In this document: one piece after another, positions 18,124-31,553 of the stretch
Position numbering within the stretch: position 1 is the stretch's first letter
How the letters are laid out: each line of letters opens with the position of its first letter
Origin: Halosegnis rubeus
GTDB lineage: Archaea; Halobacteriota; Halobacteria; Halobacteriales; Haloarculaceae
DNA length: 64,000 nucleotides
Reading direction: 5' to 3'
Assembly (NCBI RefSeq): GCF_009184545.1
Contig: NZ_QJOW01000001.1
Location: forward strand, 496,001 to 560,000
Translations under genes and position numbers: made by a program
Notes under the pieces: generated by a model
Database searches by the model: none
The model's input: the letters and a program-made list of their open reading frames with translations, nothing else
Told to the model about the DNA's origin: nothing

Positions 18124-18198
18124 GGGTTGGTGGTCTAGTCCGGTTATGACACCTCCTTCACACGGAGGAAGCCGGCGGTTCAAATCCGCCCCGACCCA
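18124..18198 (+). tRNA. tRNA-Val(CAC)
   Basis: 75-nt cloverleaf. Acceptor GGGTTGG pairs with CCGACCC (one G-T). The anticodon arm CCTCC-TTCACAC-GGAGG gives anticodon CAC. The T-arm is GGCGG-TTCAAAT-CCGCC, with discriminator A and no encoded CCA. The gene is intact. Its last 14 bases plus one are repeated at 30835-30849, marking it as the attachment site of an integrated element. Confidence 0.95.
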
Positions 18199-18199
18199 T
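18185..18199 (+). repeat. left attachment repeat (attL core)
   Basis: 15 bp, TCCGCCCCGACCCAT, comprising the 3' T-stem and acceptor strand of tRNA-Val plus one base. Identical to 30835-30849. Confidence 0.85.
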
Positions 18200-18722
18200 A
18201 CGCGGCACGTACGGATTGTATTCGACTGTATTCCTCGGTTTTAGGCCTTCTAACCGAAGAATCTGTTATATCGACGTAGATTTCGAGGTCGTGAATCCAT
18301 TCGGTCGTTGCACGCGGAGACCCTCCGTATAGCGATCCGGTTATTGACAACGGTTGCTCATATATAAACGTGGGTGCTGATGGGTGGCTCTGGAGCGCGC
18401 AAGAACTGCCCGTGGACTTGGCCTTCCCGATGGGCAGTTGCTGTCTGGTACGGACAGCCCTACGACCTCGTACGCGTCTTCAAGATCAGTTGGCGTGCGC
18501 CCTGACCAGTGGACTTCGGTTCGGGGAGGCGGCATCATACTCACGGTTCAAATGCCCACGGAGCGGTGCGTGGGCGACCCCCTCGGATTCCCTCACGACC
18601 AATTCGTTAAACTCGACGCGGTACTCTTCGCGTCCCGCGCGGATTCTCGTCTATGTTCCAACTGAGAAGAGGCTGGAAGTCACAATCCTTCACCCGGGGG
18701 ATTCCGACGGTATAGAGGCTTG
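18200..18722 (+). other. non-coding left end of the element, possible structured RNA
   Basis: No convincing gene. A strong TATA box (TATATAAA, 18360-18367) is followed by three perfect stem-loops: AACTGCCC/GGGCAGTT (18404-18439), immediately GCTGTC/GACAGC (18440-18458), then GCCCACG/CGTGGGC (18554-18575). Short reading frames on both strands lack a start and family resemblance. A structured transcript is possible; degenerate coding remnants are the alternative. Confidence 0.35.
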
Positions 18723-18778: not shown

Positions 18779-19735
18779 ATGCTTACGAAGGCCGGGCTCG
18801 CTATTCTAGACGTACTGAGTCTCGGGGGGGATGTAACCGCACAAGAGCTGGCTGTAGAAACCGGGTATAGTCGCAAGCAGGTCTACCGCGTCGTTGACGA
18901 CTTACTCGACAAAGGGGTACTGGACGAGTCCAGAGCGCAGCACAATCAGCGTGTCCTGCGCGCCTCTGATGATCCGATTGTCGAAGCGTACCGGGACCTG
19001 ACATCGAACCTCGGGCACGTGGACTGGGCGGACCTCCTCTCACCGGCCACGATACAGGTCTGCTGGTACCTTGATGAACCACGCCGCATCACCACGATCG
19101 CTGACCGATTAGGAATTACGCGACAGGCTGTCCACAAGGCGTTATCCCCGTTGAAGAACCGAGCGATGCTCGCTCCCGCCGGCCCAGAGTACGCACTCGC
19201 CGACGACCTTCACCCCTTACTCGAATTCGCCAACACCGTCGTCAGGCATGGCCACCGCAACCGTGTTCGGCGACTCGCGCCCAGTGCCACAATTGCGTGG
19301 TATGACCCGAAACGCGCGCTCGTCCAAGTACAAACCTCCGAAGACACGGAGAAACTCCAGAACGCCGACGACTGGGACGTGACTGGATTAGCGGAATTCC
19401 AAGCGTACGGCCTGCAGTTCTTCCTTGCAGGAGAACCCGCCTTCTGGTACGCGCCAGACGACGATCTCACCCTTGCAGACATCGTTTGCCATACGCTCGT
19501 CCTCAACACTGACTCCCGACGCGTGAGCTACGCGATGCTGCTCATCGAACAGGAACGAATCGAACAGGAAACACTCACCGAGACTGCGACTTGGTACGGT
19601 CTGGACTCAATGATACCCCGGATGTATCGTCTCATAGACGAAGGCACCGACGCCGACGATGAGATGGAGGCGGGAAGTCCCTTGCCGAGTGCTCAAGAAT
19701 ACGCGGCGCTGAAAGATCAGTATGGAGTCGTATAA
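18779..19735 (+). CDS. winged-helix regulator, AbiEi-like putative antitoxin
   Basis: 318 residues. Two winged-helix units are visible: residues about 1-60 (VTAQELAVETGYSRKQVYRV) and about 98-150 (ITTIADRLGITRQAVHKAL), followed by a longer alpha/beta region of unknown fold. It sits exactly upstream of a nucleotidyltransferase (TAA then ATG with no spacer), the gene order of AbiE-type toxin-antitoxin or abortive-infection pairs. A perfect inverted repeat flanks its promoter, consistent with autoregulation. The sequence is not close to bacterial AbiEi, so the assignment rests on context and domain type. Confidence 0.7.
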   Translation: MLTKAGLAILDVLSLGGDVTAQELAVETGYSRKQVYRVVDDLLDKGVLDESRAQHNQRVLRASDDPIVEAYRDLTSNLGHVDWADLLSPATIQVCWYLDEPRRITTIADRLGITRQAVHKALSPLKNRAMLAPAGPEYALADDLHPLLEFANTVVRHGHRNRVRRLAPSATIAWYDPKRALVQVQTSEDTEKLQNADDWDVTGLAEFQAYGLQFFLAGEPAFWYAPDDDLTLADIVCHTLVLNTDSRRVSYAMLLIEQERIEQETLTETATWYGLDSMIPRMYRLIDEGTDADDEMEAGSPLPSAQEYAALKDQYGVV

Positions 19736-20611
19736 ATGACCGTCTTCAGCGGCGAGGAGGCCATCAAGACGTTTCTTGCCGAGTTTGACGAGTGGCTCTC
19801 AGAATCGGTGGACGTGTACCTCCTTGGCGGGTCTGCAATGACAGTTCGGGGGCTGAAAGATCAAACCGAAGATATCGACTTGGCTCTCGGCGTGCCAACC
19901 GAATTCGAACACGTCTATCACGCCCTTCGAGAACAAGGGTTTCAGGTGACGGGTGAGCCGACCGCGTCATTCGAAGGGGTCGGAAAAACGGTTGAGCTCT
20001 ACCATCCCGACCGCGGGTTTCGGGTTGACTTGTTCGAGCAACAGGTTGTCGGGAAAGTCTGGATCACAGAGGGCATGCACGATCGGGCGGACGAGTTCTG
20101 GACAGGGGAACGTGCAACGGCGTACGTGCTCGCTGATGAGGATTTGTTCTTGTTGAAGGCAGTGTCCGGCGGCGACTTAGGAGCTGGCAGACGACGCGAC
20201 ATTGAGGATATGCGGACGTACGCGCAGCGTGGACTCGCCTACGAAGTGATCCTCAACGAGATTGAGGAACAGCGCCCGTTCAATACGGGGTCAATTGAAG
20301 CGACGCATATCCGTAATCAATCTCATCCGTTATTTACTATCGAGGTGGCTGTACAGTCGCTTTCCGGGCTGCCATCCTCGTTTACAGATCGCGTGTCGGA
20401 GTTCGCAACCGAATTCGAAGTTGAGTACGGTATCTTGGAAGCGGTCGATGAGGGTCTTCGGAGTCCACGCGCGATCAGCGAACGTGTTCTTTCGAACGTC
20501 CGAGAGCTCTCCGTTGGCGACGAGGAGGCGGTGTCTGCTGGGATCGATCGTCTCGTCGAAAAGGAAATTCTTGACCGAGAAGGGGATACTGTTCACCCCT
20601 CGTCCAACTAA
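19736..20611 (+). CDS. nucleotidyltransferase, AbiEii/DUF6036-like putative toxin
   Basis: 291 residues. The polymerase-beta fold nucleotidyltransferase motif is visible: VYLLGGSAMTVRGLKDQ (G-G-S) followed by TEDIDLALG with the D-x-D pair, and a third acidic residue in RVDLFEQ. The C-terminal about 80 residues (YGILEAVDEGLRSPRAISER...) look like a winged helix. Related proteins act as toxins that modify tRNA or protein, or remain uncharacterised. It is directly fused in the operon to the winged-helix gene, which would act as antitoxin and repressor. Confidence 0.75.
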   Translation: MTVFSGEEAIKTFLAEFDEWLSESVDVYLLGGSAMTVRGLKDQTEDIDLALGVPTEFEHVYHALREQGFQVTGEPTASFEGVGKTVELYHPDRGFRVDLFEQQVVGKVWITEGMHDRADEFWTGERATAYVLADEDLFLLKAVSGGDLGAGRRRDIEDMRTYAQRGLAYEVILNEIEEQRPFNTGSIEATHIRNQSHPLFTIEVAVQSLSGLPSSFTDRVSEFATEFEVEYGILEAVDEGLRSPRAISERVLSNVRELSVGDEEAVSAGIDRLVEKEILDREGDTVHPSSN

Positions 20612-20793: not shown

Positions 20794-20967
20794 ATGGACG
20801 GAACGCGACCAGAACCAACCTACGTATTAACAATCCAATCCAGCGGTGTAGTGCCGTGGGATTTCCTCGTCTCCGGACGGGGGAACATGTTCGTCTCGTT
20901 CATTTGTTGGTTGTTCGTCGTATATACGTTCCCTTGGATTAGTAGCGAAGCACTCAGGACGGCGTGA
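20794..20967 (+). CDS. doubtful 57-residue ORF with one hydrophobic segment
   Basis: Begins MDGTRPEPTYVLTI and contains FVSFICWLFVVYTFPW, a possible membrane helix. It overlaps the end of the convergent ATPase gene by 14 bp. A TATA-like element is not obvious and I recognise no family. It may be chance. Confidence 0.2.
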   Translation: MDGTRPEPTYVLTIQSSGVVPWDFLVSGRGNMFVSFICWLFVVYTFPWISSEALRTA

Positions 20968-22345
20968 GTAGGTCGTCGATGTCCGCTACGCTGAACAGGG
21001 ACCATGAGTCGTCGAGTTGTGCTTCGAGTCCGTCGACGAACCCGTTTTTCGAGAACAGGGCGAACTGCTCATCTCGATTCGACGGTCCCCATCGGACGTT
21101 CTCCGCCTTTGCTCGCAGGCTCTCGACGAGGTCTTCCCCGACCGGATCCGTCGTCCACTTACATTCGGCGAGGAGGACTCGGTCGTCGTTCGGTGCCAGC
21201 CCGACGATATCGATCTCCTCTTGTCCGTACCACCAGCGACCGACTTCGGAGTACGGTTCGAATGCGCCACGTCGAATCCCTTCCCAGACGACTTCTTGGC
21301 ATACGTCCTCGAACGTGGTTGCGACGTGCGTTGGGAGGTCCGGTTCAATCGTCCCCTCGTACACGATTTCCGGTGCTTCCTCGATACTGGATCGATGCGG
21401 CTCGACATACCGAAACCAGAACCGAAGGAACTCGTCCGCAACTCGGTACCGTGACCGCTTCGATTTCTTCCCCGAGGCCGTGACTGGGACATCTCGTTCG
21501 ATGAGGCGGAGGCGGCGAAGTGTCTGTAGGTACTTCGAGAGCGGTCCCGGATCGATTCCCGTTGTGCCGGAGATTTCGTTCGGTGTTGTATGGCCCAGTG
21601 CGACTGCTTCGAGGATGCTCATGTACCGGGCTGGGTTTCGGAGCTCGGTGCGCAGGAGGAACTCGGGCTCGTTATACAGTACCGCAGATGGTGATAGGAC
21701 GTGTGATCGAATGTTCGCCGCGAGCGACTGGTCGTAGTCGAACAGCGTGAGGTACATCGGGGTACCACCCGTGACGGCATACGAGCGAACCGCGTCCCTG
21801 AAGTCGTACGAGATGACCTCTCGGGCCTGTTGAAACGAGAACGGCGTTACGTCGAGTTGGGCCGTTTGTCGCCCGTACAGTGGGCTCTCGTGCCCCAGGA
21901 TCTCTGACTCCATCGTGCTCACGCTCGACCCACAGAGCACCAGCATCGAGTCCGTCCCATCAAGCTCCTGGTCAACGAACGCTTGTACGTACGACGGGAG
22001 CGAGTCGTTCTCTTCGACGAGATACGGGAACTCGTCGATGACGACGACAAGATCCTCTCGCTGGAGGTTCTCCCCGAGGTATTCGAACGCTTCGTCCCAA
22101 CTGTCGATTCGCGGGACGCGCTCATCGAAGTAATCCGCAACTTGCTCAAGGAACTTCTCGCGCTGTCGATGCTCGGCTTCCTGCGCGGCAAGGAAGTACA
22201 TGTGGGGACGGTCAGCACAGAATTCTTTGAGGAGTTCCGTTTTCCCAACCCGACGCCGGCCATAGACGACAACGAAGTCCGAACCGGGGGACTCCACCGC
22301 AGCGGTGAGTGTATCGAGTTCTTCCTCCCGGTCGTAGAAGGTCAT
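20954..22345 (-). CDS. archaeal AAA ATPase with C-terminal DUF234 nuclease-like domain
   Basis: 463 residues. The AAA domain has Walker A GRRRVGKTELL (about residue 30) and Walker B LVVVIDEFPYL (about residue 100). A winged helix follows (ISGTTGIDPGPLSKYLQTLR, near residue 260). The C-terminal DUF234 region has EEIDIVG ... LLAECKW, the D-x(n)-E-x-K pattern of restriction-endonuclease-fold proteins. Such ATPases are common on archaeal mobile elements and have been linked to toxin-antitoxin or defence functions without proof. It follows the helicase operon by 154 bp and has its own upstream A/T-rich sequence with a repeated GATAATGA, so it may be transcribed separately. Confidence 0.88.
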   Translation of the reverse strand: MTFYDREEELDTLTAAVESPGSDFVVVYGRRRVGKTELLKEFCADRPHMYFLAAQEAEHRQREKFLEQVADYFDERVPRIDSWDEAFEYLGENLQREDLVVVIDEFPYLVEENDSLPSYVQAFVDQELDGTDSMLVLCGSSVSTMESEILGHESPLYGRQTAQLDVTPFSFQQAREVISYDFRDAVRSYAVTGGTPMYLTLFDYDQSLAANIRSHVLSPSAVLYNEPEFLLRTELRNPARYMSILEAVALGHTTPNEISGTTGIDPGPLSKYLQTLRRLRLIERDVPVTASGKKSKRSRYRVADEFLRFWFRYVEPHRSSIEEAPEIVYEGTIEPDLPTHVATTFEDVCQEVVWEGIRRGAFEPYSEVGRWWYGQEEIDIVGLAPNDDRVLLAECKWTTDPVGEDLVESLRAKAENVRWGPSNRDEQFALFSKNGFVDGLEAQLDDSWSLFSVADIDDLLTPS

Positions 22346-22499: not shown

Positions 22500-25400
22500 T
22501 CACTCCTCGAACCCGGGACCGACGGTAAACGAGGCCGGCGCGCAGGGAAGTTGGTTGTGCTGACACCACCGGCAGTGCTCGCCCGAAGTGTACCGACTGA
22601 ACGAGAACTCAGCAATATCGTTCATCGACGACGTCACGTCATCTCTGACTGCTTCCAGATCACTTTCGCTGAATGTTCGGGATTCAACTTTTGGACCGAT
22701 GTCTCCGACATAGGCGTATCCCGCACGTGCTACAGGTCCATCGTACAGGTCACGGCACGCTAACAGGTAGATTGGGAGTTGTTTGTCGTCCTGTAGGTCG
22801 CGGTGGCGTTCGGTCGCCTTGTAGTCGATGACGACCAGTTCGTCGTCAGGCGTCCGGTAGACGGCGTCAATGTAGCCGACGAGTTCGTGCCCATCGATAT
22901 CGAGTTCGAACTCTCGCTCCGCGTCGATGATCTCGTAACTGGGGAGATCTAACTCGAAGTACCGGTCGATGCATTGTTTTGCCGCCGGGAGCGCGTCCTC
23001 AGCGCGGCGCTGACTGGCGAGTCGCTCGCAGATCTCGTACCACTCTTTACGGCGTTTCACATCTTGATTTGCAGCTTGCTCGGCGGTGTCGTGGAACAAC
23101 AACCCGATTGTACGTTGCGACACGCCATCACCGGCGTCGCTTGTGGTCTCTTGGTAATCGGGGAACGCGTTGACCACGTAGTCCAGGTAGTGGCTCCGCG
23201 GGCATTCCTCGTAGGCGGCCAGCGACGTGTAGCTGTGCGAGAGCGGCGGCGACGGTGCCGACGGGCCAGTCAGCGACGTCACTTGGAGTGTCTCTCGCTC
23301 GACGCTCGGTGAGAGATCTCCGTTGAGAGTGGCTGTTGCGAAGTCTAGGACGCGGTCGCGCGCAGCTTCGACTGCGAGTTCTTCGCCGTCGTGATTGACG
23401 GTCCCACCAACATCGCCGACTGTCTCGCTGGCCAGTGTGTCAGTCCAGTTTGCCGTCTCGTCCGGGAGACACTCTTGGACGTCCCTCCAGAGCGGGAGGT
23501 GTCCTCGCTTTGGCTGCCATGGGATTTGAGATGGAAGCATTTCGTCAACAATCTCTGAAACAGAGTTCTCGCCCTCACCGTTGTCGTCTTCTTCGCTGCC
23601 ACCCTGCAGGACGAGGGCGTCTTCGGCACGCGTGATCCCGACGTGGAACACGCGGCGGGTCTCACGAGCATCCCGCTCGACGAAGTCCTGCGCGAACGCT
23701 GCTTCCGCACCATCCGAGAGGCTGGTTTCGAGCGCGTCGTACGTACGTGAGCTCGGGGCCCATTCATCAGCCGTGATTTGCGGGATGAGGACAACCGGGA
23801 AGTCTAGGCCCTTGCTTTTGTGGATGGTCATCACGTTGACCGCGTCGTCAGCGACGTCCGGCTGACTCGTGGGTGTGGTGCCACTCTCGTCGAACAGGGA
23901 GTCGTAGTGTTCCAGCGAGTCGATGAACTCCGGGGTGAGCGGTGGTTGGACGGCACTATCCCCGTACTGTTCGATGACGTCCTCCAGCTGGGCGAGGTCT
24001 CGGCGTTCCTGTTCGCTGAGGTACCACTCGATGTTCGTGATGTCCGTGAGTTCGCGGTACAGGTGACTGAGCGACGCCGAGTCGCGGAGTTCGAGTAGTT
24101 CCGTGGCATGCTCGCGGGCTTCTGCGACGCGCTCAGGCTCCTCGAACTCGTCGAGCGGCGTCTCCCGGAGTGTGTCCACGAGCGGATCGTCGCCCGCGTT
24201 GAGCGTGCGAAGGTCTGCGTCGCACACACGGTAACGCATCAGGAGGACGCGATTCCAGCTTACCTCGTCTTCGGGGCGTGCGAGTGCCTTCAGGTAGGCA
24301 GTGACGGTTCCGACGCCGACTGATTCCGTGGCAAGATCGCCAGCAACCTGGTACGGGATGCCAGCATCTTCGAACTCGTCGATAACGGGTGTGGCGTGGT
24401 CGTTCTTCCGAACGAGTAACGCGATGTCGCCTGGATCGTACGTCTCATCGAGGTTGTCTGCTGCACCAGTCAGTAAATTCTGTACGACAGTACGAAGTTG
24501 GGCTGCACCGTCCGAGTCGTCGTCTTCGTCCGGTAGTTCGACGGTAGCGACGGTGTCCCCGTCGTACGCGGGTTCGTCGACGCGAGTGAGTGTCTTGTGC
24601 CGTTCACGGTGGTTGAGTTTCTGAATCGCCTCGTTCGCTAGGTTGAGAATCGGCTGACGGGAGCGGAAGTTCTCCTCCAGCGGTTCGTCCGTGAGCGCCG
24701 CAAACGCGCGGTCGAGTTCGTCGGTGATGTTGGCGACGTTCGCGCCGCGCCATTCGTAGATCGCCTGATCGTCGTCCCCGACGACGAACAGATTATCGTC
24801 GGTAACGAGTGACGTGACGAGGTCGAACTGGAGGCGATCCGTGTCTTGGAACTCGTCGCAGAATACGTAGTCCCACCGCTCGGCGATTTCCTCACCAACC
24901 GGCGAGTCCATCAGGGCAGCTGTCTCGACCACCAGGCCGTCGAAGTCAATGAGATTTCGCTCGTCCAGTTCTCGTTCGTACGCAGCGTACCCTGCGGTGA
25001 GATCTCGGGCAGCAAGACAGTCGGAAACAAACGAGTCGAGGTGGTCCGTGAGTTCAAGATCCAGATTGTCTGGGATCCCTTTCGGAGCACCGCTTGCGTA
25101 CCCTCCGAACAGGTACTTCGGGAGTTTGTACGCGTTGTCTGGCAGGTTACGCTCGCCATCTTCGTGGGCCTCGAACGCGGTTTCAAGCGCAGCACACAGA
25201 TCGACGAGCCGGTCGAGGAAATCCCGAGCACTGGCTTCGATCCCGTCCGTTCCCAATGCATCGCGTTCCGCGGCGAACTCATCGCGCACATCGGGAAGTG
25301 AGTCCAGCACGCTCGACACGGACCGGCCGCCGAGATTATCGCTGGCAATCGTTTCGATGCGTTCCGGCAGGTCGGCGAGATCGTAGACGCGGTCGGCGGG

Positions 25401-25955
25401 CCCGAGGAACGCGTCGATGTCGGCTGGCGAGATGCCGCTGCGCTTCATCGACCCGATAAAGCTGAGCAGCTTCGACGCAGCTCCGGACGCGTACCCGTCG
25501 CTGCCGTACACGTTGGGTTTGACCGACCGGTACTCGATGTCGTCCAAAACATCCAGCACGATAGCGTACTTCTCGGCGTCCGTGGCGACCTCGAAGTCCG
25601 GGTCGATCCCGGCTTCGTAGGCGTAGTCAGTGAGAATCTCGTTACAGATCGAGTGGTACGTGTACGCGTCGATGTCGTACCCCGCTGTCCCGAGTTTCGC
25701 GTTAAGCTTCTCCCGCATCGAGTCCGCCGCGTTGTTCGTGAACGTCAACGCGAGAATCCGGTCCGGCGAGACGTCTTCCTCGTCGATGAGGTGCTCGATC
25801 TTCCGCACCATCGTGAACGTCTTGCCCGTTCCTGCTCCTGCGAGCACACGCATCGGGTACGCATCGGAGTTGATGATTGTCCGCTGTTGAGGCTCTGGGG
25901 ACACGTCTTCTTCCGGCACCGGGAACCAAGACGGGTACTCGGACTCGTCGCTCAT
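22500..25955 (-). CDS. UvrD/AddA-like helicase fused to a C-terminal Fe-S RecB-type nuclease
   Basis: 1151 residues. All SF1A motifs are present: Walker A AGAGTGKTFTM (about residue 40), motif II FCDEFQDT, motif III VGDDDQAIYEWRGA, motif IV EENFRS, motif V VMTIHKSKGLDFPVV and motif VI VGITRAEDAL. From about residue 950 a PD-(D/E)XK domain follows: YEECPRSHYLDY, HDTAEQA, LVGYIDAVY with ELVVIDYKA, and CRWCQHNQLPC. The four cysteines would hold a 4Fe-4S cluster as in AddB/Cas4. This is the active motor-nuclease of a RecBCD/AddAB-like complex. Its start overlaps the end of the preceding nuclease gene by 4 bp. Confidence 0.92.
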   Translation of the reverse strand: MSDESEYPSWFPVPEEDVSPEPQQRTIINSDAYPMRVLAGAGTGKTFTMVRKIEHLIDEEDVSPDRILALTFTNNAADSMREKLNAKLGTAGYDIDAYTYHSICNEILTDYAYEAGIDPDFEVATDAEKYAIVLDVLDDIEYRSVKPNVYGSDGYASGAASKLLSFIGSMKRSGISPADIDAFLGPADRVYDLADLPERIETIASDNLGGRSVSSVLDSLPDVRDEFAAERDALGTDGIEASARDFLDRLVDLCAALETAFEAHEDGERNLPDNAYKLPKYLFGGYASGAPKGIPDNLDLELTDHLDSFVSDCLAARDLTAGYAAYERELDERNLIDFDGLVVETAALMDSPVGEEIAERWDYVFCDEFQDTDRLQFDLVTSLVTDDNLFVVGDDDQAIYEWRGANVANITDELDRAFAALTDEPLEENFRSRQPILNLANEAIQKLNHRERHKTLTRVDEPAYDGDTVATVELPDEDDDSDGAAQLRTVVQNLLTGAADNLDETYDPGDIALLVRKNDHATPVIDEFEDAGIPYQVAGDLATESVGVGTVTAYLKALARPEDEVSWNRVLLMRYRVCDADLRTLNAGDDPLVDTLRETPLDEFEEPERVAEAREHATELLELRDSASLSHLYRELTDITNIEWYLSEQERRDLAQLEDVIEQYGDSAVQPPLTPEFIDSLEHYDSLFDESGTTPTSQPDVADDAVNVMTIHKSKGLDFPVVLIPQITADEWAPSSRTYDALETSLSDGAEAAFAQDFVERDARETRRVFHVGITRAEDALVLQGGSEEDDNGEGENSVSEIVDEMLPSQIPWQPKRGHLPLWRDVQECLPDETANWTDTLASETVGDVGGTVNHDGEELAVEAARDRVLDFATATLNGDLSPSVERETLQVTSLTGPSAPSPPLSHSYTSLAAYEECPRSHYLDYVVNAFPDYQETTSDAGDGVSQRTIGLLFHDTAEQAANQDVKRRKEWYEICERLASQRRAEDALPAAKQCIDRYFELDLPSYEIIDAEREFELDIDGHELVGYIDAVYRTPDDELVVIDYKATERHRDLQDDKQLPIYLLACRDLYDGPVARAGYAYVGDIGPKVESRTFSESDLEAVRDDVTSSMNDIAEFSFSRYTSGEHCRWCQHNQLPCAPASFTVGPGFEE

Positions 25956-26854
25956 CGTTGCACCTCCGTGGACAGTCGGTCAGCACACATCTCTCGATAG
26001 TCGCAGTCCGGGCACGCCTCCTCAGTAATAAGGTCGAGCGGTTCCGGCTCGTACGTCTCACCCGTGATACCATCGTGGGCCTCCCGGATGAGCGCCCAAA
26101 TCGTGTCGTAGTGGTTCTCGTAGATTTCCGTGGTTTCCCGAGGCCAGCCACGCGCGGACACGTCGTATCCGTTCGGGGTGCTCTCGAACGACGTGCTGTT
26201 GAGGATCCCGTAGAAACTGAACCGAACCTCCATCCCGTCCTCATAGAACGGTTCGTTCTTCACGCCTTCGACGTATGTCGCCGTCTGGAACGCGTTCCGG
26301 ACCCGCTTCGGTTCGTGGGCTTCTCCGTCGAAATGGTCGCCAAGGTACTCGGCCGTCCCCGACGAAAGAACCCCGTCCGTGTTCCGCTTGTAGTCGAAAA
26401 TGTGCAGCCCGTCATCAGTCCGGACGACGTTGTCAGCTTTCCCGTGGAGTTCTCGACCATCCACTTCGCACTCCACCCAACATTCCGTGGCGACCGAGTA
26501 ACGAGCGTGCTCGATCCCGTCACCGCCGTCCGGATCGAAGAACGACGCGATGGCAGCGCGATTCTCAGCTCGCTGGTATTCCTGATGCGCAGCGGATTCG
26601 TAGTCATCCGGGGTACTGTGTTCGTCCCACTTCGCATCGAAAACCTCCATCGCCCGGTTGTGTATCGTCTCCGGGTCGTCATCGCGGTCAGTCGCATCAC
26701 ACACGGCCTCGATAGTCTCGTGGTAGATCGTTCCTTGGTTGAGATACAGTTCTGTACGGTCCGGCGCGTTCACGTCTTGCGCGTAGCGGTAGTCGTACAG
26801 CCGCGGACACGTCGCGTAGTTCGCTAACCGCGACGGGGAGAGCGACGAACTCAT
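25952..26854 (-). CDS. stand-alone PD-(D/E)XK nuclease, Cas4/RecB-like, Fe-S type
   Basis: 300 residues forming one RecB-family nuclease: N-terminal SRLANYATCPRLYDYRYAQD (first Cys), H in GTIYHETIEA, D in GKADNVV, the catalytic D-Y-K in LHIFDYKRNTDG, Q in FQTATYVEG, and C-terminal CPDCDYREMC. The 1+3 cysteine layout matches Cas4 and the AddB nuclease domain. Overlaps of 4 bp on both sides place it between the inactive helicase-like and active helicase genes, so it probably acts in one complex with them. There are no cas genes or repeats nearby, so Cas4 itself is unlikely. Confidence 0.9.
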   Translation of the reverse strand: MSSSLSPSRLANYATCPRLYDYRYAQDVNAPDRTELYLNQGTIYHETIEAVCDATDRDDDPETIHNRAMEVFDAKWDEHSTPDDYESAAHQEYQRAENRAAIASFFDPDGGDGIEHARYSVATECWVECEVDGRELHGKADNVVRTDDGLHIFDYKRNTDGVLSSGTAEYLGDHFDGEAHEPKRVRNAFQTATYVEGVKNEPFYEDGMEVRFSFYGILNSTSFESTPNGYDVSARGWPRETTEIYENHYDTIWALIREAHDGITGETYEPEPLDLITEEACPDCDYREMCADRLSTEVQR

Positions 26855-28908
26855 CGCCGCACCTCCCCGTTAGCGAATTCAACACGTGCACGCAACGCTT
26901 CTCGGAGCTCGTCTCCTCGGGAGCCGCTTTGTTCGAGCAGGTCCTGAATCTCTCCGAGTTCCGCTTCGACCTCGCCAAGCGACACCGTCACGTCCTGACT
27001 GTTCGCGCGGCGCACCTCCGCGAGCGCGTCGTCAACCCGCGACAACAGGTACTGCTCCGCCGCTTGCTCACTCGTAATGTGTGGCTCATCGGCCTCGGTC
27101 ACCCACGGAAGCTCCTCATACGCCGCTGTGAGGAACCGCGATGCCTGCGTACGCTCTTCGAGCGCTGTGTCTTCGTACTCGTAGAGACAACAGTAGAGCC
27201 GGTCTGTCGCCGCGCCAGCACCGACAGCCAACCGTCGCCGCGCGTGCTCCGTGTGGTACTGCGCGAACGGTCGTCCTGACGCTGTCGACGTCGTCGGGAA
27301 CGTCGCATCCACATCCGCTCCATCGAGTTCCGTTACACCCGGATAGTCCGGCATCGACGCGACTCGCTCGCTCGGGAACAACCGTGTCAGGAACGGGTCG
27401 CCTGGGTACTCACTGTCGACGAGATTCACGAGAAAGACCGCGCGGAACGACTCGTTCTTGATCGCTTGCAAGTGATCGACGCGGACGCCGCCGTCGAGAT
27501 CCGTCGCGCTCGTCTGATTCTGCTGCGGTGCGTACTCGTGGGCGCGTTCGAGCATCTTCTTGAACGACTCCCACGTCGCATCCACGAACTCGGTCTCTTC
27601 GAGGAACTCGGCCATGCGGAACGCCCGCCGGACGTTCCCGAACTGCGCCCGTGCATCCAACGGGGCCGCCCGTTCCGCGATCCGCTCTTTCAACCCAGCG
27701 TCTGTCGCCCACCAGTGAATCGTGTCTTCGAGACTCTCCGTCTCGCTGACTCGGTTCAAGCGGTCCGTATCGAGTTCCGGACCGTGGTCGGGTCCATCAT
27801 CTTCATCGTCGGCAAGATACCGAACGGCAGCGAGGAGTTCCCGAATCGCGGGGTCGTCACCGAACCCCGTGACAGTTGTCGATTCCGTCGGAATCCCGGT
27901 GCCTTCGAACGCTTCGATAATGTCCGTCACAGCACTACCGCTTTGGTTCGTGGCGACAGCGATGTCGTCGTACCCCCAGTCCGGCTGCACGACGAGCTCT
28001 TCAATCTCGTTCGCAATCTCAGCGAGTTGTTCGTCACTGGAGTCTGTAGCGAGGACGGACACCGACCCGGCTTCTGGATCTTCCGGGACCGTTTCTTCGG
28101 CGAAATAGGCTGCCGTCACAGCTGGTCGCGTCGACGGCGTCCCCGATGCCCCACATCGGGATTCGCTGAACGAGACGTAGTCCGTGACTGGCCCTGTCTC
28201 AACCCACGTCCGGCGTACACTCGCGTTCTCCTCGGCAACACAGACGAGCTCGCAGTCTCCCGCGAGCGCGTCGAGATACGCGCGATCAAGCGGGAAGAAC
28301 TCCTCAAACTCGACCGCGAGCACCGCGTCGAAATCAACGACGTCGCCGCGGGCATCCCCGGTGAGGACATCGAGCGCTTCCGAGATGAGTTGCCCGCGTT
28401 CCATGTGCCCGTGCTCGGCGAGCCACGCGTGGAACGCGTCGAGCGCAGCCGTGATGTCACGGAGTTCCGGAGTCTCGTCAGGCCTGACCGTCTGCCAGGA
28501 GATCGTACCCATCACCGCATCCACGTCCTCGATGAACGACGGCTGTGCAGACGCGCGTTGGAGGTACTCCGTTTCCCACTCGTAGTCTGCGAGGAACCGG
28601 TACAGGAGTTCCCGCCGCAGGGCGTCGGAGAGAATGACGCGGTCATCGGTCTGGTTGAGGACATCAGTCGCGTGCACCACCGACGACGTCACGTACGGCG
28701 TCGCCGCGCCCGGCAGTTCCTCACCTAACGCTTCACGGAACGTGTCCGCGCTCGTCGGCGCACCGGTGATGACGAGCACATCCTCAGAATCGTGCTCGTC
28801 GAGAAGCATTCGGTATTCGTTTCGCGCTGTCCGTTCGACGTTTTCGGCCCCGAACGGTACCGTGACTAACGTCCCGTCGAACTGCTGGTAAACAGATGAT
28901 AGTGACAC
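26851..28908 (-). CDS. AddB-like protein with an inactivated UvrD-type helicase fold
   Basis: 685 residues from the GTG at 28908; an ATG at 28986 would add 26 residues, but the codons there are A/T-rich and unlike the gene, and a TATA-like TCTAATTATC lies just inside that stretch. The layout follows AddB: an N-terminal VTVPFGAENVERTARNEY where Walker A should be but without G-K-T, VDFDAVLAVEFEEFFPLDRAYL in place of motif II, VRVDHLQAIKNESFRAVFLV in place of motif V, and RRRLAVGAGAATDRLYCCLY in place of motif VI. Unlike bacterial AddB it ends without a nuclease domain; that function sits in the next gene. It would be the scaffold or recognition subunit of the complex. Confidence 0.75.
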   Translation of the reverse strand: MSLSSVYQQFDGTLVTVPFGAENVERTARNEYRMLLDEHDSEDVLVITGAPTSADTFREALGEELPGAATPYVTSSVVHATDVLNQTDDRVILSDALRRELLYRFLADYEWETEYLQRASAQPSFIEDVDAVMGTISWQTVRPDETPELRDITAALDAFHAWLAEHGHMERGQLISEALDVLTGDARGDVVDFDAVLAVEFEEFFPLDRAYLDALAGDCELVCVAEENASVRRTWVETGPVTDYVSFSESRCGASGTPSTRPAVTAAYFAEETVPEDPEAGSVSVLATDSSDEQLAEIANEIEELVVQPDWGYDDIAVATNQSGSAVTDIIEAFEGTGIPTESTTVTGFGDDPAIRELLAAVRYLADDEDDGPDHGPELDTDRLNRVSETESLEDTIHWWATDAGLKERIAERAAPLDARAQFGNVRRAFRMAEFLEETEFVDATWESFKKMLERAHEYAPQQNQTSATDLDGGVRVDHLQAIKNESFRAVFLVNLVDSEYPGDPFLTRLFPSERVASMPDYPGVTELDGADVDATFPTTSTASGRPFAQYHTEHARRRLAVGAGAATDRLYCCLYEYEDTALEERTQASRFLTAAYEELPWVTEADEPHITSEQAAEQYLLSRVDDALAEVRRANSQDVTVSLGEVEAELGEIQDLLEQSGSRGDELREALRARVEFANGEVRR

Positions 28909-29051
28909 GGAATCGACCCTCGGATAATTAGAAACGTTGGTTGATTCTGTGATAAGAGTACTCCTAATTCCGCTATTTCTCTCCATCTACTCGCGCAGTT
29001 TGTCGGCAAAGCGTCTATACCTCCGTGTTGAGTTGTCCGGAGATGATGGTA

Positions 29052-29757: not shown

Positions 29758-30849
29758 TCAGATCTCATCGAGGTAGCCGCGGCGCTGCTCCAGCTTCACC
29801 TCCGCGGACCGTTTGTCGTAGTGCTTGTCGAGCACCTTCCGGCTCACGTTCATCCGGTCACTAACCACGTCAATCGGCACGTCTTCCGTGAGGAAGTGCG
29901 TGATACTCCCGCGACGAATCGCGTGCGGGCTAACTGCCTCGGCACACTTCCTCTCGATTCCCCGGTTGCAGTCAGGACACGGCTCGTCGATATAGCACGG
30001 CGCGGTGATCTTGTTGATTTTTCGACGGAGCGTTCCTCGACACATCCGTCCATGTTCTGTTGTCAGCAAGGGCTCCCTGCCGTATTCGTCGGTGATGTCG
30101 TACCGGAATGTATCGACGTGGTCTTTGAGTAACTCCGTCACTTCGGCAGACATCGCTACGAATCGTTCGCCGCTCTTTCCGTTTTTCAACGTCGTCCCCT
30201 GCTCGGGCCGATGAACGAGTTCGACACGTTTCTCGTCGAAGTTTACGTCAGTCAGATCGACGGAGTAGGCAGCCCCCATTCGCATTCCGGTTTCCCAAAG
30301 GAATGCGAGTAGGACGTAATGCATTGAGGCGTACTCGTACCGCGAGAGGTATGCGAGAAGCTTCTCTGCTCGCTCCGCCTCAAGGATTTTTTCGCTACTC
30401 TGTTGGCTGCGCCGGACGCGCGGGATCATCAGCTTCGAGTAGAGGCTCTCCGGAACCGCCTCTACCGAGCCTGCCCACTTGAGAAAGACACGGAAGCCCG
30501 ACATCATATTCTTCATCGTGAGTGCGTTGATATCATCATCGTCAGCCAGCCAGAGCCGGTACCGTTGGATGTCCCGACCTGATAGGTCGTTCAGGTTGTC
30601 GATATCCTCCTCGTCACACCATTCCAAGAAGTGCTTCATCCGGTAGCGGTGATTCTGGACAGTCGAGTCTGTACAGTCTGTTGCCTTGTGTTCGAGGAAC
30701 AGCTTGGTTCCCGTTTTGGGATCAAGCGGTTCGAGATCGTCTTGGTCCGTGGTCACAGTTTTCACGGACCGCCTGTAGAGGGCCTCTATATCGCGTGAAC
30801 GGCGGCGAACGGTCCGTACGTGGCTCGCTCCACGTCCGCCCCGACCCAT
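29758..30849 (-). CDS. tyrosine recombinase / integrase of the element
   Basis: 363 residues from the ATG at 30849. N-terminal SAM-like DNA-binding domain (LFLEHKATDCTDSTVQNHRY...), then the catalytic domain with R in ETGMRMGAAYSVDL, the H-x-x-R box in SPHAIRRGSITHF, and the nucleophile Tyr in LDKHYDKRSAE. A cysteine cluster (CYIDEPCPDCN ... RKC) between them is a zinc insert seen in haloarchaeal integrases. The first five codons are the attachment core itself, so this start codon belongs to att; an upstream frame to 30900 is outside the element. Integration places the gene behind chromosomal sequence in place of its own circular-form upstream sequence. Confidence 0.92.
   Translation of the reverse strand: MGRGGRGASHVRTVRRRSRDIEALYRRSVKTVTTDQDDLEPLDPKTGTKLFLEHKATDCTDSTVQNHRYRMKHFLEWCDEEDIDNLNDLSGRDIQRYRLWLADDDDINALTMKNMMSGFRVFLKWAGSVEAVPESLYSKLMIPRVRRSQQSSEKILEAERAEKLLAYLSRYEYASMHYVLLAFLWETGMRMGAAYSVDLTDVNFDEKRVELVHRPEQGTTLKNGKSGERFVAMSAEVTELLKDHVDTFRYDITDEYGREPLLTTEHGRMCRGTLRRKINKITAPCYIDEPCPDCNRGIERKCAEAVSPHAIRRGSITHFLTEDVPIDVVSDRMNVSRKVLDKHYDKRSAEVKLEQRRGYLDEI
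30835..30849 (-). repeat. right attachment repeat (attR core) overlapping the integrase start
   Basis: 15 bp identical to the 3' end of tRNA-Val plus one base. On the minus strand it reads ATGGGTCGGGGCGGA, which is the start codon and next four codons of the integrase. Confidence 0.85.
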
Positions 30850-30896
30850 GACCGTTTTCAGAGCGAAATCAACACCAGCTAGTCGCCATACCTTCC

Positions 30897-31553
30897 TCAC
30901 TCGCCGAATGGGCCGTCGCCGAGCAGTTCCTCCAGACTCTCTCCGTCGTCGGTCGGTGGCGAGGAGTCGACCGGGTCGTCCGGAGATGTCGACGCGCTGG
31001 TATCGGGCAGCACTTCGATGACGGTGTCGTCGTGGTCAGCCGCTGCGAGGATGTCGCCGACAGCGGCTCCCGGGAGTTCCACCGACAGGAGAGAGACGAC
31101 GCCGGCGGCCGCGCCGAGGTCTCGACAGTCGGCCGCTGCGCGGTGGGCACGTACCATCGCAGCCAACTGTTCGTCGGTAACGTTGAGCGTCGGCTTCAGC
31201 TCTCGCCACCGCTCGGCCGGGAAGACGACGGTGACGAGTTCATCGTTGACGTACACCGGCGTCACGAGAGTCCCGTCGGCGGCCGTCGCGGCGGTGAGCC
31301 AGCGGCCCAACGCGGCGCGATTTCGCTGTGTCCACCGGTGGAGTCCATCCAGCAGTCGGACGAGCGAGGGCTCACCGTCGGCGGTCTCGTCGTAGACGGC
31401 TGTTTCACGGGCTCGCTCGACTGCTTCCGGCGGGATGGGGGCGGCAAACGGCTCGACCGTGGCTCCCGGCTCCGGAGTTGACTCCGGCGTCGAACGGTCG
31501 GAAAACTGGTCGCGGACTCGGTCCGTGAGACGAGTGAGTCGTGAGTCAGCCAT
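30897..31553 (-). CDS. conserved haloarchaeal protein of unknown function
   Basis: 218 residues from the ATG at 31553. The central part (VRLLDGLHRWTQRNRAALGR ... GTLVTPVYVNDELVTVVFPAERW) is ordered; the C-terminal 40 residues are acidic and Pro/Ser-rich. It begins the chromosome on the far side of the integrated element. I do not recognise a family. No membrane segment or metal motif is visible. Confidence 0.6.
   Translation of the reverse strand: MADSRLTRLTDRVRDQFSDRSTPESTPEPGATVEPFAAPIPPEAVERARETAVYDETADGEPSLVRLLDGLHRWTQRNRAALGRWLTAATAADGTLVTPVYVNDELVTVVFPAERWRELKPTLNVTDEQLAAMVRAHRAAADCRDLGAAAGVVSLLSVELPGAAVGDILAAADHDDTVIEVLPDTSASTSPDDPVDSSPPTDDGESLEELLGDGPFGE

Follow-up and report, generated by a model that had tools for sequence, protein, structure and literature searches.

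We found that the integrase gene (int) of a 12.65-kb haloarchaeal element seated at tRNA-Val(CAC), within the 64,000-nucleotide stretch of Halosegnis rubeus DNA analysed here (the window), most likely starts at GTG 30756 and not inside the attachment core, and that the core and the 78 nt that follow it are, judging from the alignments, most likely noncoding attP arm DNA. A sequence-only reading of this region had taken the att core for the first five integrase codons and thus for the source of the start codon, a claim contradicted by homologues with in-frame stops, by a conserved start 93 nt inside the core and by the noncoding character of the arm between them. The same reading had held that recombination swaps the int promoter while keeping the start codon; here the exchange of upstream DNA stands (a left arm of ~190 bp against host DNA), the start codon in the core does not, and a promoter in the exchanged DNA is something that we only infer. 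Its description of the DNA upstream of int, chromosomal in the integrated state and the element's left end in the circle, was borne out by the layout and by conserved left ends in 10 relatives. For those parts of our explanation that rest on comparison, namely the start codon, the arms and the layout, our confidence is high.

The 15-bp repeat TCCGCCCCGACCCAT occurs in exactly two copies in the window (18185-18199 and 30835-30849), and on the minus strand the second copy gives ATGGGTCGGGGCGGA, which falls in frame with a tyrosine integrase reading of 363 codons. Insertion at tRNA-Val is supported by a genome of the same genus (G004), because there ~1 kb separates the tRNA from the counterpart of the host gene at 30897-31553, as against a spacing of 12.6 kb in the window; G004 is 98% identical to the window in the tRNA-Val flank and 89% identical over the host sequence, and host DNA homologous to the latter is present in G002 as well. 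The host gene lies on the same strand as int (Table 1), and read-through from it into the integrated int is possible. The geometry of the homologues is like that of the window, with int reading inward from attR and the tRNA at the opposite end. In G002 and G005, both of the same genus (loci L206-L209), other integrase elements occupy this tRNA-Val(CAC), with longer tRNA duplications of up to 34 nt, which makes it an integration hotspot. At L183, L187, L191 and G407:C25:50513-50534 an extra copy of the tRNA-Val 3' end stands on the host side, ~100-165 nt upstream of the int-side core, which suggests tandem insertions or the scars of earlier ones. No relative turned up in a scan of viral contigs.

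Table 1. Coordinates of the attachment region, the integrase gene and neighbouring features in the window
Feature	Position	Strand	Basis
Integration target, tRNA-Val (CAC)	18124..18198	+	ARAGORN
attL core: tRNA 3' end (14 nt) plus T	18185..18199	+	Exact repeat
Left arm (P arm) of attP, conserved noncoding; upstream of int in the circular form only	18200..18390	-	Alignment of 11 left ends
CACGTACGGA, inverted-repeat partner of 30813-30822; flanking the core in attP	18206..18215	+	Sequence
TATA-like box GTTTATATAT at the outer edge of the left arm, in the int direction; candidate int promoter in the circle	18360..18369	-	Consensus scan
Tyrosine integrase, predicted 332 aa from GTG 30756	29758..30756	-	Pfam PF00589; start by alignment with the conserved ATG of homologues
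Right arm (P' arm), core to int start, most likely noncoding; fixed length in homologues	30757..30834	-	Flat substitution rates and in-frame stops
TCCGTACGTG, inverted-repeat partner of 18206-18215	30813..30822	+	Sequence
attR core; its antisense reading ATGGGTCGGGGCGGA is distinct from the conserved int start	30835..30849	-	Exact repeat and homologue alignment
Host gene, ending 48 bp before the attR core	30897..31553	-	ORF; homologous host DNA in G004 and G002

The integrase matches the tyrosine recombinase catalytic domain (PF00589, E 1.5e-12), and its frame runs from the stop at 29758 past the core up to GTG 30900; because the frame is open upstream to that point, the open reading frame alone does not mark the core ATG as a start. 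A search of 391 genomes of the class yielded 26 close homologues, and starts were compared across 30 loci, made up of the window, the homologues from this search and others found earlier. In 19 of the 30 (18 homologues and the window) the core occupies a fixed register, 93 nt before a conserved start, GTGAnAACnATGAnCACGGAC. The window codon that aligns with this conserved ATG is GTG 30756, and the replacement of ATG by GTG is a point against the start that we favour. Between the core and the conserved start, 11 of the 19 aligned loci have in-frame stops, typically a TAA at codon 25 and often one immediately 3' of the core, and most loci outside the 93-nt register likewise carry in-frame stops. 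The loci L154 and L157 are near-identical in this region, yet codon 25 is TAC in one and TAA in the other.

Substitution patterns agree with a conserved start downstream of the core. Over the 78 nt that follow the core, pairwise substitution rates at the three codon positions are flat (0.435/0.429/0.477), as against 0.26/0.22/0.475 after the conserved start and 0.23/0.19/0.51 further in. Translation of int from the core ATG, with excision and integration swapping the promoter and the start codon kept, is in our estimation very improbable. Such an ATG is indeed present and in frame, and no stop interrupts the reading between core and start in the window or in its three nearest relatives (77-79% identical); however, 26 codons of right-arm composition would be open by chance 46% of the time, the core of one homologue (L027) is without any start codon, and in the open-frame four-member clade itself third positions account for 41% of substitutions in the arm versus 67% in the coding part, a share with P ~3e-6 on the assumption of equal coding constraint in the arm, the pairs not being independent. 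Because of the in-frame stops and the flat codon-position rates, the open clade included, we read the right arm as noncoding and the core as not supplying the start codon. The open frame between core and start may still give rise to a minor longer Int product in the window and its three closest relatives. Residues 1-31 of the longer reading resemble those of L025 (MGxGG...TxRRR), and we considered this as coding conservation and rejected it: the same DNA motif, CCTTCGnCGCCG, is kept in homologues despite stops and changes of frame.

Read in antisense, the 3' end of a tRNA that has discriminator A73 and C72 opens with TG. The base before this TG in the core ATG lies outside the tRNA and is mostly A or G in the aligned homologues. 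Because the spacing from core to start is 93 nt, or 31 x 3, an NTG in the core is automatically in frame, and the core ATG is probably an incidental extension of the open reading frame. Both features, the antisense TG and a spacing divisible by three, allow gene callers to extend int into att; the start assigned here is thus likely the correction of a gene-start error, and of one that can recur in annotation. In the wider family, 31 integrase genes are preceded by 15 nt or more of tRNA-derived sequence. Since an in-frame open start lies inside that stretch in only 5 of these 31, an att shortly before int is common among haloarchaeal integrases and a start codon in the core is not.

What recombination exchanges can be read from the element's two ends. 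The left ends of 11 elements (the window and 10 relatives) are alike for ~190 nt and then diverge abruptly, and from these alignments the attP of the clade would consist of a left arm of ~190 bp, a core of 14-15 bp and a right arm of 78 bp, placed immediately 5' of int. The conserved arms of these haloarchaeal attP sites thus far exceed the 15-bp repeat. In the window a 10-bp inverted repeat, TCCGTACGTG/CACGTACGGA, stands on both sides of the core. Integration replaces the left arm by host DNA upstream of int and retains the core and right arm, leaving at least 93 nt upstream of int identical in the integrated and circular states. At the element's left end (18200-18260) the tRNA strand is rich in T, and this stretch may replace the tRNA terminator displaced by integration. 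Conservation of the left arm could alternatively reflect sites bound by Int or by a directionality factor, or a tRNA terminator.

We tentatively propose that int in this haloarchaeal clade has its promoter in the conserved 190-bp left end, directed across attP, and that integration itself would disconnect int from it. In the circle, at least part of int transcription would start in the left arm and cross attP; after integration, with the left arm gone and host DNA in its place, int would depend on weak or host-derived read-through. Such switching would promote integration once the element has entered a cell and hold int at a low level from then on. The candidate is a TATA-like box (Table 1) whose position is kept in most relatives, 158-189 nt upstream of the core in the circle, as weak matches of ambiguous orientation; it has a poor BRE, is without a CGAAA element and scores higher on the opposite strand in 4 of 11 loci. 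As a promoter it would imply a leader of ~230 nt, a length seldom seen in Haloferax volcanii (PMC4983044). Neither the right arm nor the DNA that precedes the integrated int in the window contained a TATA-like box scoring above shuffled controls.

It is quite possible, alternatively, that the int promoter lies within the right arm (30757-30834), in which case topology would be without effect on transcription and the left arm would hold only recombination sites and the tRNA terminator. The right arm is conserved and accompanies int in both states, a weak ATATAG precedes GTG 30765 by 26 nt, Hfx. volcanii transcripts are as a rule leaderless (PMC4983044), and the tRNA strand of the left arm is rich in T, as expected of an archaeal terminator. 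However, the right arm is GC-rich (AT 0.32-0.39), its sequence rises nowhere above the shuffled controls for a TATA-like box, and the ATATAG is missing from the aligned relatives, so we did not retain it as a leaderless promoter.

A further explanation, which would fit either promoter position but which we think rather unlikely, is autoregulation at an attP that overlaps the regulatory region, with Int and a directionality factor binding beside the start codon and repressing int in the manner of KplE1 intS, for which there is precedent (PMC2951348). A conserved block, GGGTCCGTGAnAAC, adjoins the start codon and resembles TCCGTACGTG of the left arm, which speaks for this reading; against it, the N-terminal stretch before the SAM-like domain is ~22 aa, which is short for an arm-binding domain.

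The element also carries several other genes. Three overlapping genes on the minus strand (22500-28986) encode a UvrD-like helicase of 1151 aa with a PD-(D/E)XK nuclease and GajB/AddA-like matches, a second PD-(D/E)XK protein, of 300 aa, and a protein of 711 aa that faintly matches UvrD_C; from these matches the group looks like an AddAB-like or defence-type cargo operon. On the plus strand (18779-20611), an HTH regulator with an HVO_2833_C domain precedes a protein that weakly matches nucleotidyltransferases; the two may form an AbiE-like toxin-antitoxin pair. At 20954-22345 (minus strand) lies an archaeal ATPase with DUF234, which has a strong match to the PADLOC candidate PDC-S27.

The integrase is 39-41% identical to the SNJ2 and HHPV4 integrases over 98-99% of the protein (versus SNJ2, 39.0% over 99% of the query), above the level of at least 30% identity over 60% of the protein that defines the SNJ2 type (PMC8371274), and on this identity together with its catalytic domain it is classed, by sequence, as an SNJ2-type tyrosine integrase. 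SNJ2-type att sites at tRNA 3' ends are very short, 13-14 nt (PMC8371274), and the att here is likewise a very short one at a tRNA 3' end, as in the haloarchaeal pleolipoviruses SNJ2 and HHPV4. In SNJ2, however, attP is on the downstream side of int, and a replication operon and the attP-spanning orf26 are put together on circularisation (PMC13107129), whereas attP of the window element lies upstream of int. The SNJ2 integration module, with orf2 and orf3 directly upstream of int and attP downstream, was not found around the window integrase; the attR core and the host gene stand upstream of it instead. In suicidal SSV-type integrases att lies within the coding sequence and integration splits the gene (PMC8371274). 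The window element resembles these in being archaeal, in its tRNA target and in an attP that touches the integrase gene region, but its integrase coding sequence stays whole, with the core 93 nt before the conserved start. Because the SSV-type domain PF16795 (Phage_integr_3) is not among the Pfam matches of the integrase and att lies outside the coding sequence, the integrase is not of the suicidal SSV type.

Integration-dependent int promoters and overlap of att with the int promoter are already known in bacteria. At KplE1 intS, att and the int promoter overlap, an arrangement said to be widespread among tRNA-associated integrases (PMC2951348), and the window element is alike in that its attachment region adjoins the int 5' end; KplE1 is bacterial, and its promoter and repression by IntS and TorI have been measured, whereas the window element is known from its anatomy. 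ICEKp1, ICEclc and ICEEc1 use different int promoters in the integrated and the excised state (PMC13023037). As in these ICEs, att lies between int and the upstream DNA, the far end of the element forms the int upstream region in the circle, and recombination replaces the DNA upstream of int, the left end in the circle giving way to host DNA on integration. In ICEKp1, ICEclc and ICEEc1, however, the tRNA lies directly upstream of int, the tRNA promoter drives the integrated int, and the promoters have been demonstrated; in the window the tRNA is at the other end, 12.6 kb off and pointing into the element, no tRNA promoter reads into the integrated int, and it is host DNA from downstream of the tRNA that precedes int, as known from the layout. 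The left-arm promoter, if true, would give archaea a counterpart to the ICE promoter switch, with int passed on to host read-through and not to a tRNA promoter, and the conserved attP arms offer a defined target for asking whether archaeal elements couple integrase expression to topology.
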